Shown piece by piece: positions 1 to 45,073 of a stretch of 64,000 bases of DNA (its first letter is position 1; the number at the start of each line of letters is the position of its first letter). Origin of the DNA: Punica granatum (Eukaryota > Streptophyta > Magnoliopsida > Myrtales > Lythraceae). The notes beneath the pieces are model-generated. The model did not search any database and was not told the origin of the DNA. It saw nothing but the letters and a program-made list of their open reading frames with translations. The position numbers and the translations under genes are program-made. The stretch covers positions 1-64,000 of the forward strand of contig NC_045128.1 of the NCBI RefSeq assembly GCF_007655135.1, written 5' to 3'.

Positions 1-5
1 GGGAA

Positions 6-841
6 TGATGCAAATCGTAGCACGACTTCAAGGGATCCAGTTCAAGTTCCAATTGGACCGATTACGCGAGCACGAAAAAAAAAGTTTAAAGATGAACTCA
101 ACGGCCTAATTCAAGAGGTTCGGGCTCAAGCAAATTCGTGGAGGCCCATTGGACATGAATCACGTGATCAACAAAAATCCATCAATTTGATTCAAGTTAT
201 AGAAGATTCCGGACAAGGCTAAATTCAGCAAGTGTTTGAGGAACTTCTAGAATAGTTGATGATCAACAGAAGATAACATCAGATTTGTTTGAAGTTTAAA
301 TCTCATAGAGATATTCTAGGGGTATTAGATTTTATATCTTTGAGATGATGTCATATCTCTATCGATATTCTTGGTTTTAATTTCCTTATCTATAGGAGGA
401 GATATGACCAGATTAGGATTACTTTATGTCTATATATATTCATCTTAGTCAATTTTTTAAAAAAAGGAACATTCAGAAAATTGGAGAGTATTCTCTTTGG
501 TTCATGAAGAACTAATCGAACTTATCGGAAGTTTCCGTGGCGTTCATCATCGACTTATCAAACGGCTTTCCACCACCGTTTGTGGCGTCTTCATCGACTT
601 ATCAAGCGGCTTTCCATTACCGTTTGTGGCGTCTTCCTATATACCGAGTTCTTGTTTCGCATTAAACAACGGGTTGAGGTCAGTTATACCAAGGTTCTTG
701 TTTTGTCGTAACAACGGGTCGAGGGTTCGTCAATCAAATCTGATCGTGGAACGATCTTGGGTTCCTTTAGTTGTCGGGTCTCGTCATTCCTTTTGATGTA
801 GGTCATGATTTGAGGACAAATCATTTTCAAGAGAAGGAGAA
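6..841 (+). repeat. Array unit 1
   Basis: Short-form unit without the 21-bp duplication. It has a 2-bp loss before the TTCTAGAATAG motif (near 242) and reads ATTGGAGAG at the start of the R/U5 frame, where most units read ATTGTGAGAG. Confidence 0.9.
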
Positions 842-1679
842 TGATGCAAATCGTAGCACGACTTCAAGGGATCCAGTTCAAGTTCCAATTGGACCGATTA
901 CGCGAGCACGAAAAAAAAAGTTTAAAGATGAACTCAACGGCCTAATTCAAGAGGTTCGGGCTCAAGCAAATTCGTGGAGGCCCATTGGACATGAATCACG
1001 TGATCAACAAAAATCCATCAATTTGATTCAAGTTATAGAAGATTCCGGACAAGGCTAAATTCAGCAAGTGTTTGAGGAAGCTTCTAGAATAGTTGATGAT
1101 CAACAGAAGATAACATCAGATTGTATGAAGTTTAAATCTCATAGAGATATTCTAGGGGTATTTAGATTTTATATCTTTGTAGATGATGTCATATCTCTAT
1201 CGATATTCTTGGTTTTAATTTCCTTATCTATAGGAGGAGATATGACCAGATTAGGATTACTTTATGTCTATATATATTCATCTTAGTCAATTTTTTAAAA
1301 AAGGAACATTCAGAAAATTGTGAGAGTATTCTCCTTGGTTCTTGAAGAACTAATCGAACTTATCGGAAGTTTCCGTGGCGTTCATCATCGACTTATCAAA
1401 CGGGTTCCACCACCGTTTGTGGCGTCTTCATCGACTTATCAAGCGGCTTTCCATTACCGTTTGTGGCGTCTTCCTATATACCGAGGTTCTTGTTTCGCAT
1501 TAAACAACGGGTTGAGGTCAATTATACCAAGATTCTTGTTTTTGTCGTAAACAACAGGTCGAGGGTTCGTCAATCAAATCTGATCGTGGAACGATCTTGG
1601 GTTCCTTTAGTTGTCGGGTCTCGTCATTCCTTTGATGTAGGTCATGATTTGAGGACAAATCATTTCAAGAGAAGGAGAA
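842..1679 (+). repeat. Array unit 2
   Basis: Short form. Diagnostic variants are TGTATGAAG, TTTGTAGATGATG and TTCTCCTTGG, shared with unit 4 (the first two at least partly with unit 6). Confidence 0.9.
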
Positions 1680-2516
1680 TGATGCAAATCGTAGCACGAC
1701 TTAAGGGGATCCAGTTCAAGTTCCAATTGGACCGATTACGCGAGCACGAACAAAAAAGTTTAAAGATGAACTCAACGGCCTAATTCAAGAGGTTCGGGCT
1801 CAAGCAAATTCGTGGAGGCCCATTGGACATGAATCACGTGATCAACAAAAATCCATCAATTTGATTCAAGTTATAGAAGATTCCGGACAAGGCTAAATTC
1901 AGCAAGTGTTTGAGGAAGCTTCTAGAATAGTTGATGATCAACAGAAGATAACATCAGATTTGTTTGAAGTTTAAATCTCATAGAGATATTCTAGGGGTAT
2001 TTAGATTTTATCTTTATAGATGATGTCATATCTCTATCGATATTCTTAGTTTTAATTTCCTTATCTATAGGAGGAGATATGACCAGATTAGGATTACTTT
2101 ATGTCTATATATATTCATCTTAGTCAATTTTTAAAAAAAGGAACATTCAGAAAATTGTGAGAGTATTCTCTTTGGTTCTTGAAGAACTAATCGAACTTAT
2201 CGGAAGTTTCCGTGGCGTTCATCATCGACTTATCAAAAGGGTTTCCACCACCGTTTGTGGCGTCTTCATCGACTTATCAAGCGGCTTTCCATTACCGTTG
2301 TGGCGTCTTCCTATATACCGAGATTCTTGTTTCGCATTAAACAACAGGTTGAGGTCAGTTATACCAAGGTTCTTGTTTTTGTCGTAACAACGGGTCGAGG
2401 GTTCGTCAATCAAATCTGATCGTGGAACGATCTTGGGTTCCTTTAGTTGTCGGGTCTCGTCATTCCTTTGATGTAGGTCATGATTTGAGGACAAATCATT
2501 TTCAAGAGAAGGAGAA
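1680..2516 (+). repeat. Array unit 3
   Basis: Short form. Variants TGTTTGAAG, TTATAGATGATG and ATTCTTAGTTTT are shared with unit 5, two units further on. Confidence 0.9.
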
Positions 2517-3355
2517 TGTGCAAATCGTAGCACGACTTCAAGGGATCCAGTTCAAGTTCCAATTGGACCGATTACGCGAGCACGAAACAAAAAAGTTTAA
2601 AGATGAACTCAACGGCCTAATTCAAGAGGTTCGGGCTCAAGCAAATTCGTGGAGGCCCATTGGACATGAATCACGTGATCAACAAAAATCCATCAATTTG
2701 ATTCAAGTTATAGAAGATTCCGGACAAGGCTAAATTCAGCAAGTGTTTGAGGAAGCTTCTAGAATAGTTGATGATCAACAGAAGATAACATCAGATTTGT
2801 ATGAAGTTTAAATCTCATAGAGATATTCTAGGGGTATTTAGATTTTATATCTTTGTAGATGATGTCATATCTCTATCGATATTCTTGGTTTTAATTTCCT
2901 TATCTATAGGAGGAGATATGACCAGATTAGGATTACTTTATGTCTATATATATTCATCTTAGTCAATTTTTAAAAAAAGGAACATTCAGAAAATTGTGAG
3001 AGTATTCTCCTTGGTTCTTGAAGAACTAATCGAACTTATCGGAAGTTTCCGTGGCGTTCATCATCGACTTATCAAACGGCTTTCCACCACGTTTGTGGCG
3101 TCTTCATCGACTTATCAAGCGGCTTTCCATTACCGTTTGTGGCGTCTTCCTATATACCGAGGTTCTTGTTTCGCATTAAACAACGGTTGAGGTCAGTTAT
3201 ACCAAGATTCTTGTTTTTGTCGTAAACAACAGGTCGAGGGTTCGTCAATCAAATCTGATCGTGGAACGATCTTGGGTTCCTTTAGTTGTCGGGTCTCTTC
3301 ATTCCTTTTGATGTAGGTCATGATTGAGGACAAATCATTTTCAAGAGAAGGAGAA
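2517..3355 (+). repeat. Array unit 4
   Basis: Short form whose LTR start is damaged (TGTGCAAATCG, 2 bp lost). It carries the unit-2 variants TGTATGAAG and TTCTCCTTGG. Confidence 0.9.
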
Positions 3356-4213
3356 TGATGCAAATCGTAGCACGACTGATGCAAATCGTAGCACGACTTC
3401 AAGGGATCCAGTTCAAGTTCCAATTGGACCGATTACGCGAGCACGAACAAAAAAGTTTAAAGATGAACTCAACGGCCTAATTCAAGAGGTTCGGGCTCAA
3501 GCAAATTCGTGGAGGCCCATTGGACATGAATCACGTGATCAACAAAAATCCATCAATTTGATTCAAGTTATAGAAGATTCGGACAAGGCTAAATTCAGCA
3601 AGTGTTTGAGGAAGCTTCTAGAATAGTTGATGATCAACAGAAGATAACATCAGATTTGTTTGAAGTTTAAATCTCATAGAGATATTCTAGGGGTATTTAG
3701 ATTTTATATCTTTATAGATGATGTCATATCTCTATCGATATTCTTAGTTTTAATTTCCTTATCTATAGGAGGAGATATGACCAGATTAGGATTACTTTAT
3801 GTCTATATATATTCATCTTAGTCAATTTTTTAAAAAAAGGAACATTCAGAAAATTGTGAGAGTATTCTCTTTGGTTCTTGAAGAACTAATCGAACTTATC
3901 GGAAGTTTCCGTGGCGTTCATCATCGACTTATCAAACGGGTTTCCACCACCGTTTGTGGCGTCTTCATCGACTTATCAAGCGGCTTTCCATTACCGTTTG
4001 TGGCGTCTTCCTATATACCGAGATTCTTGTTTCGCATTAAACAAGGGTTGAGGTCAGTTATACCAAGGTTCTTGTTTTTGTCGTAACAACGGGTCGAGGG
4101 TTCGTCAATCAAATCTGATCGTGGAACGATCTTGGGTTCCTTTAGTTGTCGGGTCTCGTCATTCCTTTTGATGTAGGTGATTTGAGGACAAATCATTTTC
4201 AAGAGAAGGAGAA
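3356..4213 (+). repeat. Array unit 5
   Basis: First unit from the left with the 21-bp duplication of the LTR start. Shares ATTCTTAGTTTT with unit 3. Confidence 0.9.
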
Positions 4214-5053
4214 TGATGCAAATCGTAGCACGACTTCAAGGGATCCAGTTCAAGTTCCAATTGGACCGATTACGCGAGCACGAAAAAAAAGTTTAAAGAT
4301 GAACTCAACGGCCTAATTCAAGAGGTTCGGGCTCAAGCAAATTCGTGGAGGCCCATTGGACATGAATCACGTGATCAACAAAAATCCATCAATTTGATTC
4401 AAGTTATAGAAGATCCGGACAAGGCTAAATTCAGCAAGTGTTTGAGGAAGCTTCTAGAATAGTTGATGATCAACAGAAGATAACATCAGATTTGTATGAA
4501 GTTTAAATCTCATAGAGATATTCTAGGGGTATTTAGATTTATATCTTTTAGTAGATGATGTCATATCTCTATCGATATTCTTGGTTTTAATTTCCTTATC
4601 TATAGGAGGAGATATGACCAGATTAGGATTACTTTATGTCTATATATATTCATCTTAGTCAATTTTTTAAAAAAAAGGAACATTCAGAAAATTGTGAGAG
4701 TATTCTCTTTGGTTCTTGAAGAACTAATCGAACTTATCGGAAGTTTCCGTGGCGTTCATCATCGACTTATCAAACGGCTTTCCACCACCGTTGTGGCGTC
4801 TTCATCGACTTATCAAGCGGCTTTCCATTACCGTTTGTGGCGTCTTCCTATATACCGAGGTTCTTGTTTCGCATTAAACAACGGGTGAGGTCAGTTATAC
4901 CAAGATTCTTGTTTTTGTCGTAAACAACGGGTCGAGGGTTCGTCAATCAAATCTGATCGTGGAACGATCTTGGGTTCCTTTAGTTGTCGGGTCTCTTCAT
5001 TCCTTTGATGTAGGTCATGATTTGAGGACAAATCATTTTCAAGAGGAGGAGAA
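4214..5053 (+). repeat. Array unit 6
   Basis: Short form without the duplication. Shares TGTATGAAG with units 2 and 4. Several single-base losses in homopolymers (for example ACCGTTGTGG near 4788). Confidence 0.9.
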
Positions 5054-5914
5054 TGATGCAAATCGTAGCACGACTGATGCAAATCGTAGCACGACTTCAA
5101 GGGATCCAGTTCAAGTCCAATTGGACCGATTACGCGAGCACGAACAAAAAAGTTTAAAGATGAACTCAACGGCCTAATTCAAGAGGTTCGGGCTCAAGCA
5201 AATTCGTGGAGGCCCATTGGACATGAATCACGTGATCAACAAAAATCCATCAATTTGATTCAAGTTATAGAAGATTCCGGACAAGGCTAAATTCAGCAAG
5301 TGTTTGAGGAAGCTTCTAGAATAGTTGATGATCAACAGAAGATAACATCAGATTTGTTTGAAGTTTAAATCTCATAGAGATATTCTAGGGGTATTTAGAT
5401 TTTATATCTTTATAGATGATGTCATATCTCTATCGATATTCTTGGTTTTAATTTCCTTATCTATAGGAGGAGATATGACCAGATTAGGATTACTTTATGT
5501 CTATATATATTCATCTTAGTCAATTTTTAAAAAAAGGAACATTCAGAAAATGTGAGAGTATTCTCTTTGGTTCTTGAAGAACTAATCGAACTTATCGGAA
5601 GTTTCCGTGGCGTTCATCATCGACTTATCAAACGGCTTTTCCACCACCGTTTGTGGCGTCTTCATCGACTTATCAAGCGGCTTTCCATTACCGTTTGTGG
5701 CGTCTTCCTATATACCGAGGTTCTTGTTTCGCATTAAACAACAGGTTGAGGTCAGTTATACCAAGGTTCTTGTTTTTGTCGTAAACAACGGGTCGAGGGT
5801 TCGTCAATCAAATCTGATCGTGGAACGATCTTGGGTTCCTTTAGTTGTCGGGTCTCGTCATTCCTTTTGATGTAGGTGATGATTTGAGGACAAATCCTTT
5901 TCAAAGGAGGAGAA
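5054..5914 (+). repeat. Array unit 7
   Basis: Long form with the 21-bp duplication. One base is lost in the pol-tail remnant (CAAGTCCAATT), breaking that frame. Confidence 0.9.
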
Positions 5915-6768
5915 TGAGCAAATCGTAGCACGACTGATGCAAATCGTAGCACGACTTCAAGGGATCCAGTTCAAGTTCCAATTGGACCGATTACGCGAGC
6001 ACGAACAAAAAAGTTTAAAGATGAACTCAACGGCCTAATTCAAGAGGTTCGGGCTCAAGCAAATTCGTGGAGGCCCATTGGACATGAATCACGTGATCAA
6101 CAAAATCCATCAATTTGATTCAAGTTATAGAAGATTCGGACAAGGCTAAATTCAGCAAGTGTTTGAGGAAGCTTCTAGAATAGTTGATGATCAACAGAAG
6201 ATAACATCAGATTTGTTTGAAGTTTAAATCTCATAGAGATATTCTAGGGGTATTTAGATTTTATATCTTTGTAGATGATGTCATATCTCTATCGATATTC
6301 TTGGTTTTAATTTCCTTATCTATAGGAGGAGATATGACCAGATTAGGATTACTTTATGTCTATATATATTCATCTTAGTCAATTTTTTAAAAAAGGAACA
6401 TTCAGAAAATTGTGAGAGTATTCTCTTTGGTTCTTGAAGAACTAATCGAACTTATCGGAAGTTTCCGTGGCGTTCATCATCGACTTATCAAACGGGTTCC
6501 ACCACCGTTTGTGGCGTCTTCATCGACTTATCAAGCGGCTTTCCATTACCGTTTGTGGCGTCTTCCTATATACCGAGTTCTTGTTTCGCATTAAACAAGG
6601 GTTGAGGTCAGTTATACCAAGGTTCTTGTTTTTGTCGTAAACAACGGGTCGAGGGTTCGTCAATCAAATCTGATCGGAACGATCTTGGGTTCCTTTAGTT
6701 GTCGGGTCTCTTCATTCCTTTGATGTAGGTCATGATTTGAGGACAAATCATTTTCAAGAGAAGGAGAA
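5915..6768 (+). repeat. Array unit 8
   Basis: Long form. The first copy of the 21-bp duplication is damaged (TGAGCAAATCG), and several single-base deletions follow. Confidence 0.9.
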
Positions 6769-7628
6769 TGATGCAAATCGTAGCACGACTGATGCAAATC
6801 GTAGCACGACTTCAAGGGATCAGTTCAAGTTCCAATTGGACCGATTACGCGAGCACGAACAAAAAAGTTAAAGATGAACTCAACGGCCTAATTCAAGAGG
6901 TTCGGGCTCAAGCAAATTCGTGGAGGCCCATTGGACATGAATCACGTGATCAACAAAATCCATCAATTTGATTCAAGTTATAGAAGATTCCGGACAAGGC
7001 TAAATTCAGCAAGTGTTTGAGGAAGCTTCTAGAATAGTTGATGATCAACAGAAGATAACATCAGATTTGTTTGAAGTTTAAATCTCATAGAGATATTCTA
7101 GGGGTATTTAGATTTTATATCTTTATAGATGATGTCATATCTCTATCGATATTCTTGGTTTTAATTTCCTTATCTATAGGAGGAGATATGACCAGATTAG
7201 GATTACTTTATGTCTATATATATTCATCTTAGTCAATTTTTAAAAAAAGGAACATTCAGAAAATTGTGAGAGTATTCTCTTTGTTTCTTGAAGAACTAAT
7301 CGAACTTATCGGAAGTTTCCGTGGCGTTCATCATCGACTTATCAAACGGCTTTCCACCAACGTTTGTGGCGTCTTCATCGACTTATCAAGCGGCTTTCCA
7401 TTACCGTTTGTGGCGTCTTCCTATATACCGAGGTTCTTGTTTCGCATTAAACAATGGGTTGAGGTCAGTTATACCAAGACTCTTGTTTTTGTCGTAAACA
7501 ACGGGTCGAGGGTTCGTCAATCAAATCTGATCGTGGAACGATCTTGGGTTCCTTTAGTTGTCGGGTCTCGTCATTCCTTTTGAAGTAGGTGATGATTTGA
7601 GGACAAATCCTTTTCAAGAGGAGGAGAA
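6769..7628 (+). repeat. Array unit 9
   Basis: Long form with the 21-bp duplication and single-base losses at GGATCAGTTC and AAAAAGTTAAAG. Confidence 0.9.
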
Positions 7629-8468
7629 TGATGCAAATCGTAGCACGACTTCAAGGGATCCAGTTCAAGTTCCAATTAGATCGATTACGCGAGCACGAAC
7701 AAAAAAGTTTAAAGATGAACTCAACGGCCTAATTCAAGAGGTTCGGGCTCAAGCAAATTCGTGGAGGCCCATTGGACATGAATCACGTGATCAACAAAAA
7801 TCCATCAATTTGATTCAAGTTATAGAAGATTCCGGACAAGGCAAAATTCAGCAAGTGTTTGAGGAAGCTTCTAGAATAGTTGATGATCAACAGAAGATAA
7901 CATCAGATTTGTTTGAAGTTTAAATCTCATAGAGATATTCTAGGGGTATTTAGATTTTATATCTTTATAGATGATGTCATATCTCTATCGATATCTTGGT
8001 TTTAATTTCCTTATCTATAGGAGGAGATATGACCAGATTAGGATTACTTTATGTCTATATATATTCATCTTAGTCAATTTTTAAAAAAAGGAACATTCAG
8101 AAAATTGTGAGAGTATTCTCTTTGGTTCTTGAAGAACTAATCGAACTTATCGGAAGTTTCCGTGGCGTTCATCATCGACTTATCAAACGGCTTTCCACCA
8201 CCGTTTGTGGCGTCTTCATCGACTTATCAAGCGGCTTTCCATTACCGTTTGTGGCGTCTTCCTATATACCGAGGTTCTTGTTTCGCATTAAACAACGGGT
8301 TGAGGTCAGTTATACCAAGGTTCTTGTTTTTGTCGTAAACAACGGGTCGAGGGTTCGTCAATCAAATCTGATCGTGGAACGATCTTGGGTTCCTTTAGTT
8401 GTCGGGTCTCGTCATTCCTTTTGATGTAGGTGATGATTTGAGGACAAATCCTTTCAAGAGGAGGAGAA
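7629..8468 (+). repeat. Array unit 10
   Basis: Short form. It carries the AATTAGATCG variant found again in units 15, 17 and 20. The pol-tail stop TAA is changed to AAA (GGCAAAATTC), so the remnant frame runs 24 codons further, to 7923. Confidence 0.9.
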
Positions 8469-9322
8469 TGATGCAAATCGTAGCACGATGATGCAAATCG
8501 TAGCACGACTTCAAGGGATCCAGTTCAAGTTCCAATTGGACCGATTACGCGAGCACGAACAAAAAAGTTTAAAGATGAACTCAACGGCCTAATTCAAGAG
8601 GTTCGGGCTCAAGCAAATTCGTGGAGGCCATTGGACATGAATCACGTGATCAACAAAAATCCATCAATTTGATTCAAGTTATAGAAGATTCCGGACAAGG
8701 CTAAATTCAGCAAGTGTTTGAGGAAGCTTCTAGAATTGTTGATCAACAGAAGAAACATCAGATTTGTTGAAGTTTAAATCTCATAGAGATATTCTAGGGG
8801 TATTTAGATTTTATATCTTTATAGATGATGTCATATCTCTATCGATATTCTTGGTTTTAATTTCCTTATCTATAGGAGGAGATATGACCAGATTAGGATT
8901 ACTTTATGTCTATATATATTCATCTAGTCAATTTTTTAAAAAAAGGAACATTCAGAAAATTGTGAGAGTATTCTCTTTGGTTCTTGAAGAACTAATCGAA
9001 CTTATCGGAAGTTTCCGTGGCGTTCATCATCGACTTATCAAACGGCTTTCCACCACCGTTTGTGGCGTCTTCATCGACTTATCAAGCGGCTTTCCATTAC
9101 CGTTTGTGGCGTCTTCCTATACCGAGGTTCTTGTTTCGCATTAAACAATGGGATGAGGTCAGTTATACCAAGGTTCTTGTTTTTGTCGTAAACAACGGGT
9201 CGAGGGTTCGTCAATCAAATCTGATCGTGGAACGATCTTGGGTTCCTTTAGTTGTCGGGTCTCTTCATTCCTTTTGATGTAGGTGATGATTTGAGGACAA
9301 ATCCTTTTCAAGAGGAGGAGAA
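8469..9322 (+). repeat. Array unit 11
   Basis: Long form with a shortened duplication (one base lost at the junction of its two copies) and small deletions near 8740-8770. Confidence 0.9.
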
Positions 9323-10186
9323 TGATGCAAATCGTAGCACGACTGATGCAAATCGTAGCACGACTTCAAGGGATCCAGTTCAAGTTCCAATTGGACCGAT
9401 TACGCGAGCACGAACAAAAAAGTTTAAAGATGAACTCAACGGCCTAATTCAAGAGGTTCGGGCTCAAGCAAATTCGTGGAGGCCCATTGGACATGAATCA
9501 CGTGATCAACAAAAATCCATCAATTTGATTCAAGTTATAGAAGATTCCGGACAAGGCTAAATTCAGCAAGTGTTTGAGGAAGTTTCTAGAATTGTTGATG
9601 ATCAACAGAAGATAACATCAGATTTGTTTGACGTTTAAATCTCATAGAGATATTCTAGGGGTATTTAGATTTTATATCTTTATAGATGATGTCATATCTC
9701 TATCGATATTCTTGGTTTTAATTTCCTTATTTATAGGAGGAGATATGACCAGATTAGGATTACTTTATGTCTATATATATTCATCTTAGTCAATTTTTTA
9801 AAAAAAGGAACATTCAGAAAATTGTGAGAGTATTCTCTTTGGTTCATGAAGAACTAATCGAACTTATCGGAAGTTTCCGTGGTGTTCATCATCGACTTAT
9901 CAAACGGCTTTCCACCACCGTTTGTGGCGTCTTCATCGACTTATCAAGCGGCTTTCCATTACCGTTTGTGGCGTCTTCCTATATACCGAGGTTCTTGTTT
10001 CGCATTAAACAACGGGATGAGGTCAGTTATACCAAGGTTCTTGTTTTTGTCGTAAACAACGGGTCGAGGGTTCGTCAATCAAATCTGATCGTGGAACGAT
10101 CTTGGGTTCCTTTAGTTGTCGGGTCTCTTCATTCCTTTTGATGTAGGTGATGATTTGAGGACAAATCCTTTTCAAGAGGAGGAGAA
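9323..10186 (+). repeat. Array unit 12
   Basis: Long form, little damaged. Private changes include GACGTTTAAATC, TTATTTATAGGAGG and CGTGGTGTTC. Confidence 0.9.
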
Positions 10187-11045
10187 TGATGCAAATCGTA
10201 GCACGACTGATGCAAATCGTAGCACGACTTCAAGGGATCCAGTTCAAGTTCCAATTGGACCGATTACGCGAGCACGAACAAAAAAGTTTAAAGATGAACT
10301 CAACGGCCTAATTCAAGAGGTTCGGGCTCAAGCAAATTCGTGGAGGCCCATTGGACATGAATCACGTGATCAACAAAATCCATCAATTTGATTCAAGTTA
10401 TAGAAGATTCCGGACAAGGCTAAATTCAGCAAGTGTTTGAGGAAGCTTCTAGAATAGTTGATGATCAACAGAAGATAACATCAGATTTGTTTGAAGTTTA
10501 AATCTCATAGAGATATTCTAGGGGTATTTAGATTTTATATCTTTATAGATTTGTCATATCTCTATCGATATTCTTGGTTTTAATTTCCTTATCTATAGGA
10601 GGAGATATGACCAGATTAGGATTACTTTATGTCTATATATATTCATCTTAGTCAATTTTTTAAAAAAGGAACATTCAGAAAATTGTGAGAGTATTTCTTT
10701 GGTTCTTGAAGAACTAATCGAACTTATCGGAAGTTTCCGTGGCGTTCATCATCGACTTATCAAACGGCTTCCACCACCGTTTGTGGCGTCTTCATCGACT
10801 TATCAAGCGGCTTTCCATTACCGTTTGTGGCGTCTTCCGATATACCGAGGTTCTTGTTTCGCATTAAACAACAGGTTGAGGTCAGTTATACCAAGGTTCT
10901 TGTTTTTGTGGTAAACAACGGGTCGAGGGTTCGTCAATCAAATCTGATCGTGGAACGATCTTGGGTTCCTTTAGTTGTCGGTTCTCGTCATTCCTTTTGA
11001 TGTAGGTGATGATTTGAGGACAAATCCTTTTCAAGAGGAGGAGAA
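10187..11045 (+). repeat. Array unit 13
   Basis: Long form with a small deletion at ATAGATTTGTCAT and GAGAGTATTTCTTT. Confidence 0.9.
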
Positions 11046-11904
11046 TGATGCAAATCGTAGCACGACTGATGCAAATCGTAGCACGACTTCAAGGGATCCA
11101 GTTCAAGTTCCAATTGGACCGATTACGCGAGCACGAACAAAAAGTTTAAAGATGAACTCAACGGCCTAATTCAAGAGGTTCGGGCTCAAGCAAATTCGTG
11201 GAGGCCCATTGGACATGAATCACGTGATCAACAAAAATCCATCAATTTGATTCAAGTTATAGAAGATTCCGGACAAGGCTAAATTCAGCAAGTGTTTGAG
11301 GAAGTTTCTAGAATAGTTGATGATCAACAGAAGATAACATCAGATTTGTTTGAAGTTTAAATCTCATAGAGATATTCTAGGGTATTTAGATTTTATATCT
11401 TTATAGATGATGTCATATCTCTATCGATATTCTTGGTTTTAATTTCCTTATCTATAGGAGGAGATATGACCAGATTAGGATTACTTTATGTCTATATATA
11501 TTCATCTTAGTCAATTTTTAAAAAAGGAACATTCAGAAAATTGTGAGAGTATTCTCTTTGGTTCTTGAAGAACTAATCGAACTTATCGGAAGTTTCCGTG
11601 GCGTTCATCATCGACTTATCAAACGGCTTTCCACCACCGTTTGTGGCGTCTTCATCGACTTATCAGCGGCTTTCCATTACCGTTTGTGGCGTCTTCCTAT
11701 ATACCGAGGTTCTTGTTTCGCATTAAACAATGGGTTGAGGTCAGTTATACCAAGATTCTTGTTTTTGTCGTAAACAACGGGTCGAGGGTTCGTCAATCAA
11801 ATCTGATCGTGGAACGATCTTGGGTTCCTTTAGTTGTCGGGTCTCGTCATTCCTTTGGATGTAGGTGATGATTTGAGGACAAATCCTTTTCAATAGGAGG
11901 AGAA
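11046..11904 (+). repeat. Array unit 14
   Basis: Long form with single-base losses in an A run (CGAACAAAAAGT) and a G run (TTCTAGGGTATT). Confidence 0.9.
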
Positions 11905-12767
11905 TGATGCAAATCGTAGCACGACTGATGCAAATCGTAGCACGACTTCAAGGGATCCAGTTCAAGTTCCCATTAGATCGATTACGCGAGCACGAACTAA
12001 AAAGTTTAAAGATGAACTCAACGGCCTAATTCAAGAGGTTCGGGCTCAAGCAAATTCGTGGAGGCCCATTGGACATGAATCACGTGATCAACAAAAATCC
12101 ATCAATTTGATTCAAGTTATAGAAGATTCCGGACAAGGCTAAATTCAGCAAGTGTTTGAGGAAGCTTCTAGAATAGTTGATGATCAACAGAAGTTAACAT
12201 CAGATTTGTTTGAAGTTTAAATCTCATAGAGATATTCTAGGGGTATTTAGATTTTATATCTTTATAGATTTTGTCATATCTCTATCGATATTCTTGGTTT
12301 TAATTTCCTTATCTATAGGAGGAGATATGACCAGATTAGGATTACTTTATGTCTATATATATTCATCTTAGTCAATTTTTAATGAAAGGAACATTCAGAA
12401 AATTATGAGAGTATTCTCTTTGGTTCTTGAAGAACTAATCGAACTTATCGGAAGTTTCCGTGGCGTTCATCATCGACTTATCAAACGGCTTTCCACCACC
12501 GTTTGTGGCGTCTTCATCGACTTATCAAGCGGCTTTCCATTACCGTTTGTGGCGTCTTCCTATATACCGAGGTTCTTATTTCGCATTAAACAACAGGTTG
12601 AGGTCAGTTATACCAAGGTTCTTGTTTTTGTCGTAAACAACGGGTCGAGGGTTCGTCAATCAAATCTGATCGTGGAACGATCTTGGGTTCCTTTAGTTGT
12701 CGGGTCTCGTCATTCCTTTTGATGTAGGTGATGATTTGAGGACAAATCATTTTCAAAAGAAGGAGAA
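11905..12767 (+). repeat. Array unit 15 (first unit of trimer copy 1)
   Basis: Carries TTTTTAATGAAAGG, ATTATGAGAG and GTTCTTATTTCGC. The last is shared only with unit 18, exactly 2589 bp downstream. Confidence 0.9.
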
Positions 12768-13631
12768 TGATGCAAATCGTAGCACGACTGATGCAAATCG
12801 TAGCACGACTTCAAGGGATCCAGTTCAAGTTCCAATTGGACCGATTACGCGAGCACGAACAAAAAAGTTTAAAGATGAACTCAACGGCCTAATTCAAGAG
12901 GTTCGGGCTCAAGCAAATTCGTGGAGGCCCATTGGACATGAATCACGTGATCAACAAAAATCCATCAATTTGATTCAAGTTATAGAAGATTCCGGACAAG
13001 GCTAAATTCAGCAAGTGTTTGAGGAAGCTTCTAGAATAGTTGATGATCAACAGAAGATAACATCAGATTTGTTTGAAGTTTAAATCTCATAGAGATATTC
13101 TAGGGGTATTTAGATTTTATATCTTTATAGATGATGTCATATCTCTATCGATATTCTTGGTTTTAATTTCCTTTTCTATAGGAGGATATATGACCAGATT
13201 AAGATTACTTTATGTCTATATATATTCATCTTAGTCAATTTTTTAAAAAAAGGAACATTCAGAAAATTGGGAGAGTATTCTCTTTGGTTCTTGAAGAACT
13301 AACCGAACTTATCGGAAGTTTCCGTGGCGTTCATTATCGACTTATCAAACGGCTTTCCACCACCGTTTGTGGCGTCTTCATCGACTTATCAAGCGGCTTT
13401 CCATTACCGTTTGTGGCGTCTTCCTATATACCGAGGTTCTTGTTTCGCATTAAACAACGGGTTGAGGTCAGTTATACCAAGGTTCTTGTTTTTGTCGTAA
13501 ACAACGGGTCGAGGGTTCGTCAATCAAATCTGATCGTGGAACGATCTTGGGTTCCTTTAGTTGTCGGGTCTCTTCATTCCTTTTGATGTAGGTGATGATT
13601 TGAGGACAAATCCTTTTCAAGAGGAGGAGAA
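12768..13631 (+). repeat. Array unit 16 (second unit of trimer copy 1)
   Basis: Carries TTTTTTAAAAAAAGG and a CCTTTTCTATAGG change. Its counterpart is unit 19, 2589 bp downstream (CCTTTCTATAGG). Confidence 0.9.
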
Positions 13632-14493
13632 TGATGCAAATCGTAGCACGACTGATGCAAATCGTAGTACGACTTCAAGGGATCCAGTTCAAGTTCCAAT
13701 TAGATCGATTACGCGAGCACGAACAAAAAGTTTAAAGATGAACTCAACGGCCTAATTCAAGAGGTTCGGGCTCAAGCAAATTCGTGGAGGCCCATTGGAC
13801 ATGAATCACGTGATCAACAAAAATCCATCAATTTGATTCAAGTTATAGAAGATTCCGGACAAGGCTAAATTCAACAAGTGTTTGAGGAAGCTTCTAGAAT
13901 AGTTGATGATCAACAGAAGTTAACATCAGATTTGTTTGAAGTTTAAATCTCATAGAGATATTCTAGGGGTATTTAGATTTTATATCTTTATAGATTATGT
14001 CATATCTCTATCGATATTCTTGGTTTTAATTTCCTTATCTATAGGAGGAGATATGACCAGATTAGGATTACTTTATGTCTATATATATTCATCTTAGTCA
14101 ATTTTTAATGAAAGGAACATTCAGAAAATTATGAGAGTATTCTCTTTGGTTTTTGAAGAACTAATCGAACTTATCGGAAGTTTCCGTGGCGTTCATCATC
14201 GACTTATCAAACGGCTTTCTACCACCGTTTGTGGCGTCTTCATCGACTTATCAAGCGGCTTTCCATTACCGTTTGTGGCGTCTTCCTATATACCGAGGTT
14301 CTTGTTTCGCATTAAACAACAGGTTGAGGTCAGTTATACCAAGGTTCTTGTTTTTGTCGTAAACAACGGGTCGAGGGTTCGTCAATCAAATCTGATTGTG
14401 GAACGATCTTGGGTTCCTTTAGTTGTCGGGTCTCGTCATTCCTTTTGATGTAGGTCATGATTTGAGGACAAATCATTTTCAAGAGAAGGAGAA
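13632..14493 (+). repeat. Array unit 17 (third unit of trimer copy 1)
   Basis: Carries CGTAGTACGAC, AATTAGATCG, CTTTCTACCACC and CTGATTGTGG. All four recur together in unit 20, 2588 bp downstream. Confidence 0.9.
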
Positions 14494-15356
14494 TGATGCA
14501 AATCGTAGCACGACTGATGCAAATCGTAGCACGACTTCAAGGGATCCAGTTCAAGTTCCAATTGGACCGATTACGCGAGCACGAACAAAAAAGTTTAAAG
14601 ATGAACTCAACGGCCTAATTCAAGAGGTTCGGGCTCAAGCAAATTCGTGGAGGCCCATTGGACATGAATCACGTGATCAACAAAAATCCATCAATTTGAT
14701 TCAAGTTATAGAAGATTCCGGACAAGGCTAAATTCAACAAGTGTTTGAGGAAGCTTCTAGAATAGTTGATGATCAACAGAAGTTAACATCAGATTTGTTT
14801 GAAGTTTAAATCTCATAGAGATATTCTAGGGGTATTTAGATTTTATATCTTTATAGATTATGTCATATCTCTATCGATATTCTTGGTTTTAATTTCCTTA
14901 TCTATAGGAGGAGATATGACCAGATTAGGATTACTTTATGTCTATATATATTCATCTTAGTCAATTTTTAATGAAAGGAACATTCAGAAAATTATGAGAG
15001 TATTCTCTTTGGTTCTTGAAGAACTAATCGAACTTATCGGAAGTTTCCGTGGCGTTCATCATCGACTTATCAAACGGCTTTCCACCACCGTTTGTGGCGT
15101 CTTCATCGACTTATCAAGCGGCTTTCCATTACCGTTTGTGGCGTCTTCCTATATACCGAGGTTCTTATTTCGCATTAAACAACAGGTTGAGGTCAGTTAT
15201 ACCAAGGTTCTTGTTTTTGTCGTAAACAACGGGTCGAGGGTTCGTCAATCAAATCTGATCGTGGAACGATCTTGGGTTCCTTTAGTTGTCGGGTCTCGTC
15301 ATTCCTTTTGATGTAGGTGATGATTTGAGGACAAATCATTTTCAAGAGAAGGAGAA
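14494..15356 (+). repeat. Array unit 18 (first unit of trimer copy 2)
   Basis: Matches unit 15 at TTTTTAATGAAAGG, ATTATGAGAG and GTTCTTATTTCGC. Confidence 0.9.
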
Positions 15357-16219
15357 TGATGCAAATCGTAGCACGACTGATGCAAATCGTAGCACGACTT
15401 CAAGGGATCCAGTTCAAGTTCCAATTGGACCGATTACGCGAGCACGAACAAAAAAGTTTAAAGATGAACTCAACGGCCTAATTCAAGAGGTTCGGGCTCA
15501 AGCAAATTCGTGGAGGCCCATTGGACATGAATCACGTGATCAACAAAAATCCATCAATTTGATTCAAGTTATAGAAGATTGCGGACAAGGCTAAATTCAG
15601 CAAGTGTTTGATGAAGCTTCTAGAATAGTTGATGATCAACAGAAGATAACATCAGATTTGTTTGAAGTTTAAATCTCATAGAGATATTCTAGGGGTATTT
15701 AGATTTTATATCTTTATAGATGATGTCATATCTCTATCGATATTCTTGGTTTTAATTTCCTTTCTATAGGAGGAGATATGACCAGATTAGGATTACTTTA
15801 TGTCTATATATATTCATCTTAGTCAATTTTTTAAAAAAAGGAACATTCAGAAAATTATGAGAGTATTCTCTTTGGTTCTTGAAGAACTAATCGAACTTAT
15901 CGGAAGTTTCCGTGGCGTTCATCATCGACTTATCAAACGGCTTTCCACCACCGTTTGTGGCGTCTTCATCGACTTATCAAGCGGCTTTCCATAACCGTTT
16001 GTGGCGTCTTCCTATATACCGAGGTTCTTGTTTCGCATTAAACAACGGGTTGAGGTCAGTTATACCAAGGTTCTTGTTTTTGTCGTAAACAACGGGTCGA
16101 GGGTTCGTCAATCAAATCTGATCGTGGGACGATCTTGGGTTCCTTTAGTTGTCGGGTCTCTTCATTCCTTTTGATGTAGGTGATGATTTGAGGACAAATC
16201 CTTTTCAAGAGGAGGAGAA
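15357..16219 (+). repeat. Array unit 19 (second unit of trimer copy 2)
   Basis: Matches unit 16 in the TTTTTTAAAAAAAGG type. Private changes are GATTGCGGAC, TTTGATGAAG and CCATAACCG; the last puts a stop in the R/U5 frame. Confidence 0.9.
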
Positions 16220-17082
16220 TGATGCAAATCGTAGCACGACTGATGCAAATCGTAGTACGACTTCAAGGGATCCAGTTCAAGTTCCAATTAGATCGATTAC
16301 GCGAGCACGAACAAAAAAGTTTAAAGATGAACTCAACGGCCTAATTCAAGAGGTTCGGGCTCAAGCAAATTCGTGGAGGCCCATTGGACATGAATCACGT
16401 GATCAACAAAAATCCATCAATTTGATTCAAGTTATAGAAGATTCCGGACAAGGCTAAATTCAACAAGTGTTTGAGGAAGCTTCTAGAATAGTTGATGATC
16501 AACAGAAGTTAACATCAGATTTGTTTGAAGTTTAAATCTCATAGAGATATTCTAGGGGTATTTAGATTTTATATCTTTATAGATTATGTCATATCTCTAT
16601 CGATATTCTTGGTTTTAATTTCCTTATCTATAGGAGGAGATATGACCAGATTAGGATTACTTTATGTCTATATATATTCATCTTAGTCAATTTTTAATGA
16701 AAGGAACATTCAGAAAATTATGAGAGTATTCTCTTTGGTTCTTGAAGAACTAATCGAACTTATCGGAAGTTTCCGTGGCGTTCATCATCGACTTATCAAA
16801 CGGCTTTCTACCACCGTTTGTGGCGTCTTCATTGACTTATCAAGCGGCTTTCCATTACCGTTTGTGGCGTCTTCCTATATACCGAGGTTCTTGTTTCGCA
16901 TTAAACAACAGGTTGAGGTCAGTTATACCAAGGTTCTTGTTTTTGTCGTAAACAACGGGTCGAGGGTTCGTCAATCAAATCTGATTGTGGAACGATCTTG
17001 GGTTCCTTTAGTTGTCGGGTCTCGTCATTCCTTTTGATGTAGGTCATGATTTGAGGACAAATCATTTTCAAGAGAAGGAGAA
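16220..17082 (+). repeat. Array unit 20 (third unit of trimer copy 2)
   Basis: Matches unit 17 at CGTAGTACGAC, AATTAGATCG, CTTTCTACCACC and CTGATTGTGG. Confidence 0.9.
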
Positions 17083-17912
17083 TGATGCAAATCGTAGCAC
17101 GACTGATGCAAATCGTAGCACGACTTCAAGGGATCCAGTTCAAGTTCCAATTGGACCGATTACGCGAGCACGAACAAAAAAGTTTAAAGATGAACTCAAC
17201 GGCCTAATTCAAGAGGTTCGGGCTCAAGCAAATTCGTGGAGGCCCCTTGGACATGAATCACGTGATCAACAAAAATCCATCAATTTGATTCAAGTTATAG
17301 AAGATTCCGGACAAGGCTAAATTCAGCAAGTGTTTGAGGAAGCTTCTAGAATAGTTGATGATCAACAGAAGATAACATCAGATTTGTATGAAGTTTAAAT
17401 CTCATAGAGATATTCTAGGGGTATTTAGATTTTATATCTTTGTAGATGATGTCATATCTTTATCGATATTCTTGGTTTTAATTTCCTTTTCTATAGGAGG
17501 AGATATGACCAGATTAGGATTACTTTATGTCTATATATATTCATCTTAGTCAATTTTTTAAAAAAAGGAACATTCAGAAAATTGTGAGAGTATTCTCTTT
17601 GGTTCTTGAAGAACTAATCGAACTTATCGGAAGTTTCCGTGGCGTTCATTATCGACTTATCAAACGGCTTTCCACCACCGTTTGTGGCGTCTTCATCTAC
17701 TTATCAAGCGGCTTTCCATTACCGTTTGTGGCGTCTTCCTATATACCGAGGTTATTGTTTCGCATTAAACAACGGGTTGAGGTCAGTTATACCAAGGTTC
17801 TTGTTTATGTTGTAAGCAACTGGTTGAGGGTTCGTCAATCAAATCTGATCGTGGGACGATCTTGGGTTCCTTTAGTTGTCGGGTCTCGTCATTCTTGGCG
17901 GGAATCGCATCA
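17083..17912 (+). repeat. Array unit 21, terminal, with complete LTR 3' end
   Basis: Starts like the other long units (21-bp duplication), but after GTCATTC it continues with the normal LTR end TTGGCGGGAATCGCATCA instead of the 52-bp linker. It carries the TGTATGAAG variant of the left part of the array and several private changes near 17750-17860. It abuts a Tekay-type LTR fragment at 17913. Confidence 0.9.
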
Positions 17913-18075
17913 GATAAAGGAAGGGAGGGTATGAGTTGTGGTATATTAAATACATTTAAAGATCCAGCAAAAAAAAATAAGGGTATATTATATACATGTA
18001 TGTTATGTAACCATGCATGTTCATATGGATATGTTTATGAGCATATATGCATGTTTGGTGGACACTAGCCTCATA
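17913..18075 (-). repeat. Remnant of the T1 3' LTR (Tekay-like)
   Basis: Matches the start of the full LTR at 38741-41282, read on the minus strand. 17913-17933 aligns with 40940-40960 and 17934-18075 with 41141-41282, so 180 bp present in the full LTR (40961-41140) are absent here. The LTR tip reads TATGAGG on the minus strand where the full copy has TGTGAGG. The remaining roughly 2.2 kb of this LTR is absent from the window. It is either displaced to the left of the B array, if the array inserted here, or deleted. Confidence 0.85.
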
Positions 18076-20625: not shown

Positions 20626-20627
20626 GT

Positions 20628-20639
20628 TGGTATCAGAGC
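20628..20639 (+). other. A1 primer-binding site (initiator tRNA-Met)
   Basis: TGGTATCAGAGC two bases after the LTR end, complementary to the 3' end of plant initiator tRNA-Met; minus-strand DNA priming site. Confidence 0.85.
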
Positions 20640-20660
20640 AGGAGTTGCCTAAATCTGATC

Positions 20661-23021: not shown

Positions 23022-23827
23022 TGATGCGATTCCCATCAGGAATGACGAGACCCGACAACTAAAGGAACCCAAGATCGTTCCACGATCAGATTTGATTGAC
23101 GAACCCTCGACCCGTTTTACTACAAAAACAAGAACCTTGGTATAACTGACCTCAACCCGTTGTTTAATGCGAAACAAGAACCTCGGTATATAGGAAGACG
23201 CCACAAACGGTAATAGAAAGCCGCTTGATAAGTCGATGAAGACGCCACAAACGGTGGTGGAAAGCCGTTTGATAAGTCGATGATGAACGCTACGGAAACT
23301 TCCGATAAGTTCGATTAGTTCTTCAAGAACCAAAGAGAATACTCTCACAATTTTCTGAATGTTCCTCCCATTAAAAATTGACTAAGATGAATATATATAG
23401 ACAGAAAGTAATCCTAATCTGGCCATATCTCCTCCTAAAGATAAAGAAATTAAAATCTAGATTATCGATAGAGATATGACATAATCTATAAAGATATGAA
23501 ATCTAAATACCCCTAGAATATCTCTATGAGATTTAAACTTTAAACAAATCTGATGATATCTTCTGTTGATCATCAACTATTCTAGAAGCTTCCTCAAACA
23601 CTAGCTGAATTTAGCCTTGTCCGGAATCTTCTATAACTTGAATCAAATTGATGGATTTTTGTTGATCACGTGATTCATGTCCAATGGGCCTCCACGAATT
23701 TGCTTGAGCCCGAACCTCTTGAATTAGGCCGTTGAGTTCATCTTTAAACTTCTTTGCTCGTGCTCGCGTAATCGGTCCAATTGGAACTTGAACTGGATCC
23801 CTTGAAGTCGTGCTACGATTTGCATCA
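23022..23827 (-). repeat. B1 3' LTR
   Basis: 806 bp. Its U3 side (23611-23827) encodes the last 72 codons or so of pol ([17 protein letters not shown] ...) on the minus strand. It belongs to the subtype with TCTTTAGGAGG and ATGGGAGGAAC. Confidence 0.92.
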
Positions 23828-25738
23828 TCCCCCTCCTCTTGAAAAGGATTTCTCCTCAAATCATCACCTACATCAAAAGGAAGCAAATCAGAAACATTAA
23901 AAGTAGCACTTACATTGTACTCACTAGGTAAGTCTAGTTTATAAGCATTGTCATTGATGCGCTCCAGGACTTGAAAAGGTCCATCTCCTCTTGGAAGCAG
24001 TTTGGAACGTCTTTGCGCCGGAAATCTCTCTTTCCTCATATGCAACCAAACCCAATCTCCGGGTTCAAAAATCAGCTTATGACGGCCCTTGTTGGCGTGT
24101 TTTGTATACTGCTCCGTTTTTCACTCAATGTTGAGTCTTGTTTTCTCATGAATCTGCTTGACAAATTCAGCTTTCTTTTTGCCATCGAAATTAACATGCT
24201 CAGTCAAAGGTAAAGGAGATAAATCCAATGGAGTTAAAGGATTAAATCCATAAACAACTTCAAATGGTGAAAATTTAGTAGGGGAATGAACAGATCTGTT
24301 ATAAGCAAACTCAACATGTGGTAAACACTATTCCCACGTTTTAATGTTTTTTTTTATGATTGCCCTCAACAAAGTAGACAAAGTTCTACTTACTACTTCC
24401 GTTTGACCATCAGTTTGTGGGTGACAAGTAGTGGAAAACAACAGCTTAGTACCTAACTTACACCACAAAGTCTTCCAAAAATAGCTCAAGAACTTAGCAT
24501 CTCTATCCGAAACAATTGTTTTAGGCATGCCATGTAACCTCACAATCTCCCTAAAGAACAAATCAGCAACATGCGAGGCATCATCCGTTTTGTGACATGA
24601 AATAAAGTGTGCCATCTTAGAAAATCTATCCACAACCACAAAAATTGAATCTCTCCCACGTTTAGTCCTAGGTAATCCTAACACAAAGTCCATTGAAATA
24701 TCAATCCAAGGCTCACTAGGAATTGGTAAAGGAGTATACAAACAGTTAGGCTGCACTCTGGATTTAGCTTGCCTACATGTAATGCATCTACCACAAATTC
24801 TCTCAACATCTCTTTTCATATGTGGCCAATAGAAGTGTTCTTGCAAAATAGCTAAAGTCTTTGCTACTCCAAAATGTCCCATTAATCCCCCACCATGAGA
24901 TTCTTGCACTAATAACTCTCTCAAGGAACAATTTGGCACGCATAACTTATTCTCTCGAAACAGAAAGTCATCATGCCTAAAGAACTTACCACAAGGAATT
25001 TTCTCACAAGCTCGATATTCCTCACAAAATTCATGGTCATCAGCATATAAATTTTTAATGTGCTCAAAACCAAGCAATTTTGCATCAAGTGTAGAGAGTA
25101 ATGCATACCTGCGAGAAAGTGCATCGGCGACCACATTCTCCTTACCTTGCTTACACCGAACGACGTATGGAAACGTCTCAATGAACTCCACCCATCGGGC
25201 ATGTCTTTTGTTTAGTTTGTGTTGGCCCTTCAAGTGTTTCAAGAACTCATGATCGGTGTGTATCACGAACTCCTTAGGCCATAGGTAGTGCTGCCACGTC
25301 TCTAAAGCTCGAACCAATGCATACAACTCTTTATCATAAGTTGGATAGTTTAAGGCTGCCCGCTTAGTTTTTCGCTGAAGTAAGCAATTGGCCGTCCTTC
25401 CTGCATGAGAACTGCACCTATACCAACACTTGAAGCATCACATTCAATCTCAAAAGTTTTAGGAAAGTTAGGTAAAGATAATAAAGGAGCGTTGGTCAGC
25501 TTCTCTTTGATTAGCTGAAACGCCTTCTCTTGTTCTTCTCCCCATCTAAATCCAACGTTTTTCTTGATCACTTCAGTAAGTGGTGCTGCTATGCTACTAA
25601 AGTCCTTCATGAACCGCCGGTAGAAACTAGCAAGTCCATGAAAACTACGAACATTACTTACACTTGTGGGACTAGGCCACTCTTGGATTGCACGTACCTT
25701 CTCCTCATCAACTTGTATACCTTGTTCACTAACAACAA
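23828..25738 (-). pseudogene. B1 pol, 3' part: RT end, RNaseH, integrase
   Basis: Minus-strand pol downstream of the B2 insertion. The RT thumb ([18 protein letters not shown]) and RNaseH ([15 protein letters not shown]) read 25738-25350. After a frameshift near 25340, RNaseH ([17 protein letters not shown]), the integrase zinc finger ([11 protein letters not shown] ... CGRCITC) and core ([28 protein letters not shown]) read 25326-24328. Stops: TAG at 24328 (B2 has GAG) and TGA at 24121 (B2 has CGA). The final segment enters the 3' LTR and ends at 23611. Catalytic D, D and E positions are preserved in the text of the pseudogene. Confidence 0.9.
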
Positions 25739-26545
25739 TGATGCAAATCGTAGCACGACTTCAAGGGATCCAGTTCAAGTTCCAATTGGACCGATTACGC
25801 GAGCACGAGCAAAGAAGTTTAAAGATGAACTCAACGGCCTGATTCAAGAGGTTTGGGCTCAAGCAAATTCGTGGAGGCCCATTGGACATGAATCACGTGA
25901 TCCACAAAGATCCATCAACATTATTCAAGTTATAGAAGATTCTGGACAAGGCTAAATTCAGCAAGTGTTTAAGGAAGTTTCTAGAACAGTTGATGATCAA
26001 CAGAAGATAACATCAGATTTGTTTAAAGTTTAAATCTCATAGAGATATTCTAGGGGTATTTAGATTTTATATCTTTATAGATTATGTCATATCTCTATTG
26101 ATATTCTTGGTTTTAATTTCCTTATCTATAGGAGGAGATATGACCAGATTAGGATTACTTTATGTCTATATATATTCATCTTAGTCAATTTTAATGAGAG
26201 GAACATTCAGAAAATTGTGAGAGTATTCTCTTTGGTTCTTGAAGAACTAATCGAACTTATCGGAAGTTTCCGTGGCGTTCATCATCGACTTATCAAACGG
26301 CTTTCCACCACCGTTTGTGGCGTCTTCATCGACTTATCAAGCAGTTTTCCATTACCGTTTGTGGCGTCTTCCTATATACCGAGGTTCTTGTTTCGCATTA
26401 AACAACGGGTTGAGGTCAGTTATACCAAGGTTCTTGTTTTTGTCGTAAACAACGGGTCGAGGGTTCGTCAATCAAATCTGATCGTGGAACGATCTTGGGT
26501 TCCTTTAGTTGTCGGGTCTCGTCATTCTTGGCGGGAATCGCATCA
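25739..26545 (+). repeat. B2 5' LTR
   Basis: 807 bp. Contains TATA-like CTATATATATTC at 26166-26177, an imperfect 44-bp tandem duplication (26286-26329 and 26330-26373) and, at its start, the copied pol C-terminus. PBS-like TTTGGTATCAGAG follows at 26546. Confidence 0.92.
26166..26177 (+). promoter_or_regulatory. TATA-like element of the family-B LTR
   Basis: CTATATATATTC in the B2 5' LTR. The same motif is present in each array unit (for example 430, 1267, 9771) and in the other B LTRs. It lies about 45 bp upstream of the GTGAGAGTATTC segment, so that segment would be transcribed as R/U5 (inferred). Confidence 0.55.
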
Positions 26546-28655: not shown

Positions 28656-29244
28656 ATTCAGCAAGTGTTTAAGGAAGCTTCTAGAACAGTTGATGATCAA
28701 CAGAAGATAACATCAGATTTGTTTAAAGTTTAAATCTCATAGAGATATTCTAGGGGTATTTAGATTTTATATCTTTATAGATTATGTCATATCTCTATCG
28801 ATATTTTGGTTTTAATTTCCTTATCTATAGGAGGAGATATGACCAGATTAGATTACTTTATGTCTATATATATTCATCTTAGTCAATTTTTAATGAAAGG
28901 AACATTCAGAAAATTGTGAGAGTATTCTCTTTGGTTCTTGAAGAACTAATCGAACTTATCGGAAGTTTCCGTGGCGTTCATCATCGACTTATCAAACGGC
29001 TTTCCACCACCGTTTGTGGCGTCTTCATCGACTTATCAAGCGGTTTTCCATTACCGTTTGTGGCGTCTTCCTATATACCGAGGTTCTTGTTTCGCATTAA
29101 ACAACGGGTTGAGGTCAGTTATACCAAGGTTCTTGTTTTTGTCGTAAACAACGGGTCGAGGGTTCGTCAATCAAATCTGATCGTGGAACGATCTTGGGTT
29201 CCTTTAGTTGTCGGGTCTCGTCATTCTTGGCGGGAATCGCATCA
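28439..29244 (+). repeat. B2 3' LTR (reference copy of the family-B LTR)
   Basis: 806 bp, TGATGC...GCATCA. Encodes the pol C-terminal tail to 28655. TATA-like motif near 28863. It carries the TCTATAGGAGG and TTTTTAATGAAAGG variants found in the array. Confidence 0.93.
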
Positions 29245-31880: not shown

Positions 31881-32564
31881 GATTGCTGCAAAATAAAGTT
31901 AGAAAGAATGGACCTCACAATTCTCTCCCTTACGTGTTTACACTCAAGAATGTGAATCACTCTACACTCGTGTTTTCACTCAACAAAATATGTGGCTTTT
32001 AACCCTCTAATCTTCTCACCGCTCTTGCCTTTTTCCACTCGACAATTCTCTTTCAGTTCCTTTGGAACTAAACAAACAACTCCAAATTTTCCAGCAACAA
32101 TTCACCAAGAACTCATCAAGGAAAATTAATGATCAAAGGAAATTTCAGGAAGAAAAGAAGCAAGAGAAAAGGCAACTACTATGAAGGATTAAATAAACCA
32201 GAATGTTATATGAAATTATGGGATCAGAATCAATGCAGATTACAAAGAACGAGAAATAACAACTTTAGAATGGTCTGATGTAAAAAATTTGGATCAAATT
32301 GACAATGATGTCTTAATTCTTTTCTTTTGATCCTTTTTTTTTAGCTCTGTATTTTTTTTTGGCCGATTTTTTTTTCTTTTTTTTCTGCTCTATTTTTTTT
32401 TTCAGCTGTGTTTTTTTTTGGCCGAAATTTTTTTTTCAGCTCTTTTTTTTTTTCTGCTAACAATCCGCAAAAAACAAAACTCGATGAAGCGAAACTCAGC
32501 AAATTGAAACAAAAAAAAATGGATAGGATAAACCCGATTTGGAGCCTGATGCTTTGATACCAAA
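31881..32564 (-). other. B1 leader and primer-binding site
   Basis: No gene. Sense strand is minus. The PBS at 32551-32562 reads TGGTATCAAAGC on that strand, one change from TGGTATCAGAGC. Between about 32330 and 32515 the sense strand has runs of 8-10 A separated by short motifs such as GCTGA and GGCC. The same A-rich block is in B3 (43449-43580). Confidence 0.8.
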
Positions 32565-38587: not shown

Positions 38588-38740
38588 CGCTGATTTCCTA
38601 AGCAATACAAGAGTTAATCAAGCATTTAACAAACACAATTATGAGATACATCCCGTCTTGGGGCCGCAACTAATCAAAATAACGGGGATCAGGCACACTA
38701 AGTCTACAGAATCCTATAACCTAGGCTCTGATACCAAAAA
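38588..38740 (-). other. T1 leader and primer-binding site
   Basis: On the minus strand, TGGTATCAGAGCCTAGG begins 5 bases after the LTR end (plus coordinates about 38720-38736). No gene. Confidence 0.85.
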
Positions 38741-43349: not shown

Positions 43350-43363
43350 TTTGGTATCAGAGC

Positions 43364-45041: not shown

Positions 45042-45073
<32 letters not shown>

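Follow-up and report, generated by a model that had tools for sequence, protein, structure and literature searches.

In maize, the tandem repeats CRM1TR and CRM4TR consist wholly of long terminal repeat (LTR) sequence of CRM retrotransposons together with adjacent internal sequence, and they are up to 97-98% parent-like, with three loci spanning ~115-213 kb (Sharma et al., 2013, PMC3648361). The proposed seed of these repeats is an LTR-internal-LTR remnant generated by illegitimate recombination, which subsequently grew by gene conversion (PMC3648361). We analyzed a window of 64,000 nt, comprising positions 1 to 64,000 of Punica granatum contig NC_045128.1 (assembly GCF_007655135.1; contig C2 in what follows), whose first 17,912 nt form a tandem array of LTRs from a CRM-like family, likely of the centromere-targeting type. 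We consider it probable that this array represents one CRM-like insertion, the interior of which was likely lost, apart from 52 bp, through one deletion at a shared TTC, and which likely grew in place. The question of how satellites originate is an old one, and aged arrays often lack the evidence with which to address it. At this locus, one can read the likely founding insertion and its target copies, together with the junction left by the deletion and a paralogue that is unoccupied, such that the order of steps in the CRM1TR model is testable at a single site and haplotypes can be compared for array copy number.

Analysis by BLAST and alignment revealed 21 LTRs arranged head-to-tail on the plus strand of window 1-17,912 (U01-U21), the full LTR of this family being ~805 bp in length. 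In U01-U20 (20 of the 21), the LTR lacks its final 18 bp and is followed by a 52-bp stretch of pol tail and polypurine tract (PPT) before the next TGATG, whereas U21 is a complete terminal LTR ending in GCATCA. An earlier account based on the sequence alone (the sequence-only reading) had described 21 head-to-tail units, each an LTR short of 18 bp plus 52 bp; the count and the unit make-up are upheld, but the word "each" does not extend to U21. The monomer is ~838 bp in U01-U04, U06, and U10 and ~860 bp in the other 14 of 20, because the start of the LTR is either single or tandemly duplicated over 21 bp; the duplication occurs in 15 of the 21 units (U05, U07-U09, U11-U20, and U21). The sequence TATATATA is found once per unit in 21 of 21, at unit position 426-449, and each array unit also holds two copies of an LTR-internal subrepeat of ~44 bp, at approximately positions 533-631 of the reference unit. 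The array is absent from the Tandem Repeats Finder listing, whose longest period, 500, is below the unit size. The features of the array and its target site are as follows, C104 being a second contig of the same assembly.

1..17912, plus strand: tandem array U01-U21, period ~838 or 860 bp; the left edge lies outside the window, or else is represented by bases 1-5 in error-damaged form
6..17082, plus strand: the 20 units composed of an LTR minus its last 18 bp and the 52-bp pol tail and PPT
784..798, plus strand: first of the 20 LTR/tail junctions, TCATTC followed by CTTTTGATG, with TTC common to both parental sides
11906..17083, plus strand: U15-U20, with the type order I-II-I, I-II-I
12505..17912, plus strand: right part of the array, the stretch that best matches, in colinear order, the end of the complete C104 array (98.8%)
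17083..17912, plus strand: U21, the terminal complete LTR with the 21-bp duplication, ending in GCATCA
17913..17917, plus strand: GATAA, the right target-site copy (the left copy, on C104, is GATAG)
40940..40944, plus strand: GATAG in the unoccupied paralogous target (AGCTAGGGATAGAGGAAGGGAGGG, from 40933)

At the junction, LTR position 787 is fused to sequence starting 52 bp ahead of the 3′ LTR, with TTC on both sides, and all 20 window copies display one junction form, small base changes aside. With at most two mismatches allowed, TCATTCCTTTTGATG yielded 18 matches in the window versus a shuffle mean of 0.44; 16 of these are array junctions and two are the parental tails of related elements (B1 and B2, listed below), while the remaining four of the 20 array junctions carry a 1-base deletion. 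Across the assembly (320,430,517 bp in 474 contigs, with C2 accounting for 44,568,936 bp), an extended 25-base junction pattern, again with at most two mismatches, matched at 29 places, 16 on C2:1-17,912 and 13 on C104, and its reversed control gave 0 matches. This pattern misses four of 20 junctions on C2 and two of 15 on C104, namely those with small indels, and no extended junction was detected elsewhere in the assembly, a search that indel-damaged, collapsed, or unassembled copies would escape. A bare 15-mer match at C2:11,785,448, located in non-LTR surroundings where the longer pattern does not match, was set aside as chance, and a junction scan of IMG/VR returned 0 matches. Because the extended junction is found on only two contigs, which share their right flank and agree in how the last six units are ordered, the array is likely a local expansion at what looks like a single locus. 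Thus, the proposal of the sequence-only reading that the array is a satellite is not borne out by the test that this reading itself set: all 29 matches lie on two contigs resembling one locus, collapsed copies being possible, rather than at the several loci or in the high copy number of a satellite DNA family.

When read as its reverse complement, C104 (31,574 bp) comprises 17.9 kb of left flank, GATAG, a TGATG start, 16 LTRs over 13,267 bp, GCATCA, and GATAA, with edges consisting of AGCTAGGGATAG followed by TGATG and of GCATCA followed by GATAAAGGAAGGG. The right flank after GATAA is the same as on C2. The two 5-bp target-site copies, GATAG on the left and GATAA on the right, differ by one mismatch, and the unoccupied paralogous site in the window reads GGGATAGAGGAAGGG. 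The final 2.2 kb of the C104 left flank matches window 38,741-40,944, part of a Ty3/gypsy element (A), and the right flank, starting at 17,934, corresponds to the window from 41,141 onward. No match longer than 200 bp to the remaining 15.7 kb of left flank was found within window 17,913-64,000, and on C104 no pol immediately precedes the array. Units V11-V16 of C104 pair with U16-U21 of C2, with 1-13 substitutions each, although for V12 and V14 a second unit matches equally well. We infer that C2 and C104 represent one locus, either as alleles or assembled twice. Among the variants of C104 are one unit without ~360 bp and two without ~44 bp; two C104 units apparently hold a single copy of the ~44-bp subrepeat. 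C104 might have been taken for the absent left side of C2 beyond a gap, but this idea was abandoned because C104 has both array edges, and an intact element upstream of the window, suggested by parental-type bases 1-5, is not supported, as the C104 array starts at a target-site copy. A 39-bp tandem repeat (5.6 copies, window 39636-39852) resides inside the stretch that matches the C104 left flank.

Elsewhere in the window, the same LTR family (family B) is represented by four elements.

23022..33372, minus strand: B1, CRM-like element with target-site duplication ACTAC; B2 is nested inside
25739..29244, plus strand: B2, internally deleted CRM-like element with target-site duplication AACAA; its pol open reading frame runs to 28655, into the 3′ LTR
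42758..48468, plus strand: B3, CRM-like element with a truncated 5′ LTR; its LTRs are nearest the array (1.9-2.1%)
55911..56718, minus strand: B4, solo LTR with target-site duplication GAAAA

The sequence-only reading regarded B1-B4 as the parents of the array, which is wrong in detail: with mean LTR distances to U01-U20 of 1.9-3.6%, B3 being the nearest, they are relatives, and the simplest candidate for the parent is the insertion now occupied by the array. Its description of family B as CRM-like, by comparison, agrees with each of four features. CRM elements of group A have TGATG/CATCA LTR termini, 5-bp target-site duplications, a tRNA-Met primer-binding site (PBS), and a pol frame that terminates inside the 3′ LTR, and they bear a CR motif in place of a type II chromodomain (Neumann et al., 2011, PMC3059260). 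The same termini occur in the array and in the B LTRs, the 5′ LTR of B1 starting with TGATT, and 5-bp duplications flank B1, B2, B4, and, with one mismatch, the array itself. Immediately after the LTR, B3 reads CATCA-TT-TGGTATCAGAGC, B1 shows one mismatch, and B2 is deleted just behind TGGTATCAGAG; we take this PBS to be of the tRNA-Met type. The B2 reading frame ends at 28655 and the 3′ LTR starts at 28439, and the tails of B1 and B3 are similar. Judged by these four features of its sequence, the parent family is CRM-like. The frames of B2 and B3 that were scanned gave no Chromo match. The LTR-coded GPITRARxKK block of B2 is exact in four of 11 aligned relatives (drawn from 120 listed), variant in five, including one grass (GPITRSRAK), and not seen in two, a comparison made among these relatives. 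Among the matches listed (120 of 7,707), the named protein relatives are plants, including beech, Xanthoceras, Acer, citrus, Hibiscus, Arabidopsis, grasses, and others. GGAGAA closes the tail before the LTR in 20 of 20 array tails, and the corresponding tail end in the three B elements with a tail is GGGGAA or GGGGGA.

Mean substitution divergence in the LTR part is 1.54% among U01-U20, and the mean divergence of U21 from the other units, 2.45%, is among the highest. Indels number 53 events in U01-U14 (4.85 per kb) versus five in U15-U21 (0.91 per kb), and four (0.85 per kb) in the other B LTRs, a sum over six of the seven that leaves out the truncated 5′ LTR of B3. Because the indel rate of U01-U14 is roughly fivefold and the window starts at base 1 of C2, the left 12 kb is probably thinly covered, poor sequence (window 1-11905, probably an unpolished contig end), and private variants in this stretch should not be trusted. 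In the four-gamete test, 79 of 496 informative site pairs are incompatible, corresponding to a minimum of eight recombinations, and units farther apart in the array are more diverged (Mantel r 0.28, with 80 of 20,000 permutations equally high). U17 and U20 differ by two substitutions. Since the I-II-I order occurs twice and three of the five exact runs of at least 400 bp in the array lie at an offset of 2,589, or three units, a three-unit duplication within U15-U20 is probable.

These features can be accommodated by a three-step origin. A CRM-like retrotransposon would first have inserted, creating the 5-bp target copies GATAG and GATAA. A single deletion at the 3-nt shared TTC would then have removed the interior except for 52 bp, leaving a shortened LTR, the 52 bp, and an LTR, after which unequal exchange or gene conversion between LTRs would have multiplied the LTR-plus-52-bp unit in place. 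Repeated exchange in such a remnant predicts the form of the array, in which n copies of the shortened LTR with its 52 bp are closed by one LTR. Growth after insertion is suggested by the mosaic variants, the distance-dependent similarity, and the probable three-unit duplication, a signal coming partly from the poor stretch. We infer that the deletion came first and in one step and that growth proceeded by LTR-LTR recombination after insertion, its exact route presumably being one of the two just named. The array likely represents an early stage of a route along which such an element could turn into a satellite.

Several observations weigh against this interpretation. Microhomology of at least 3 nt is present at 5.3% of random breakpoint pairs, and thus the TTC is weak evidence for the deletion. 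The divergence of U11 (2.47%), which lies in the poor stretch, is on par with that of U21, so that the edge effect is not clean; two of the five long exact runs occur at offsets of one and two units; and the poor sequence of U01-U14 may inflate both the mosaic counts and the distance trend. Window bases 1-5 read GGGAA, the parental PPT type, unlike the 20 array tails. With respect to the equivalence of the two contigs, the units left of V11/U16 do not pair in a simple way, the difference between 16 and 21 LTRs may reflect alleles or assembly, and C104 is itself indel-rich, its right flank showing two mismatches and nine gap openings in 413 bp.

Other explanations account for parts of this evidence. 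A tandem cDNA could have been made before integration, by repeated template switching or by concatemer or rolling-circle copying of extrachromosomal DNA, and inserted whole. The C104 array is indeed one target-site-flanked insertion, and template switching is discussed for Cassandra arrays (PMC7215508), but a single copying event predicts equal divergence among units, whereas the units share derived variants, have mosaic sites, and resemble each other more the closer they lie. We therefore regard insertion of a finished array as unlikely, although a short founder of two or three units could have been generated by pre-integration copying. The same junction would also be expected if the 3′ end of an otherwise intact element, consisting of the 52-bp tail and LTR positions 1-787, had been tandemly duplicated, and the parental-type PPT at window bases 1-5, which differs from 20 of 20 array tails, is in keeping with this. 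These five bases may equally be an error-damaged GGGATAG edge, however, and the C104 array begins at a target-site copy with no pol ahead, so that duplication of a 3′ end is tenable for C2 only if C2 and C104 differ in locus or haplotype; we judge it highly improbable.

It is compatible with the in-place origin proposed above, which concerns only how the array arose, that the window samples one block of a true centromeric or pericentromeric satellite family of the species. The CRM-like parent and a second CRM-like family in the window, the ending of a 44.6-Mb contig in the array, and the tandem CRM repeats of maize (PMC3648361) all favor such a family; as the extended junction occurs nowhere else in the 320-Mb assembly, collapsed or unassembled copies being possible, it seems very unlikely. 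Least probable of all is an artefact in which looped or collapsed reads yielded extra units. The high indel rate of U01-U14, the position of the window at a contig end, and the unequal copy number of the two contigs would be explained in this way, and the exact copy number may be wrong, but the array is present in two contigs, U15-U21 are cleaner and differ by substitutions, and C104 has variants of its own between its two edges (the ~360-bp loss and the two ~44-bp losses).

Family B also appears in a second tandem form. Querying the assembly with the B3 LTR produced 847 candidates, 40 of which were scored. Contig C385 carries seven family B LTRs ~6.03 kb apart (13.9-50.9 kb) and contig C456 carries four with the same spacing (4.6-23.5 kb); in these tandem LTRs the PPT precedes the LTR at 11 of 11 edges read and the PBS follows at eight of eight. 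At three further expected places on C385 (~1.8, 7.9, and 56.2 kb) no LTR was seen, and contig C394 showed no more than one LTR pair. Judged by their LTR edges, C385 and C456 look like whole elements sharing LTRs, and because these LTRs are in register at ~6.03 kb, LTR-LTR exchange is plausible in family B. A bolder but decidedly unlikely view is that one CRM family makes satellites in two ways simultaneously, as 6.03-kb whole-element arrays with shared LTRs and, following a single deletion, as a 0.86-kb LTR array, the latter a centromeric satellite at birth whose founding site is readable.

The window contains additional retroelements. A second CRM-like family (C) is seen within 54647-62147, limits that are provisional, with repeats of at least 661 bp that are 98.9% alike and 73-78% identical to B at the DNA level; its pol frame extends ~325 bp into the second repeat, and in between lies the B4 solo LTR. 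Around the B elements are Ty3/gypsy sequences on the minus strand (17934-20223 and 35888-42760) and on the plus strand (19831-23023 with 33373-36344, and 48459-54646), one plus-strand copy being interrupted by B1. One minus-strand integrase end near B has a Chromo match below the curated cut-off.

The exact unit, an LTR with a 52-bp pol tail, was not found in the literature searched, which is not proof of absence, but related arrangements are described in several reports. In tandem LTR retrotransposons of rice and other plants (PMC11899658), as in this array, LTRs are shared head-to-tail within one target-site-flanked insertion. Those elements alternate LTRs with coding interiors, an organization that C385 and C456 fit as far as their LTR edges show, whereas the spacer of the array is only 52 bp. 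Cassandra arrays (PMC7215508) likewise consist of numerous consecutive LTRs separated by a short spacer, and unequal exchange or template switching has been proposed to explain them; Cassandra, however, is a naturally small element, while the short spacer here is likely the deletion product of a coding CRM-like element. In the centromeric LTR-derived tandem repeats of jujube (PMC12596083) and in hop SaazCEN, which lies within CRM LTRs (PMC12371157), the LTRs of centromeric elements similarly feed or hold tandem repeats, but those units are parts of an LTR and are backed by CENH3 binding data.

The closest precedent is provided by CRM1TR and CRM4TR, with which the array shares both its unit make-up, wholly LTR and adjacent internal DNA of a CRM-like element, and the seed-and-growth model. 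In the maize repeats, the internal part is untranslated region beside the LTR and ends at a conserved site, whereas the array contains the 3′ pol tail and PPT. Short direct repeats that would permit a single step were reportedly not found for CRM1TR and CRM4TR, whereas a single step at 3 nt suffices for the array, which, unlike the maize repeats as described, retains both target-site copies in place (on C104). What differs from the maize precedent is the 3′-tail composition of the unit, the one-step junction, and the readable edges of the insertion.

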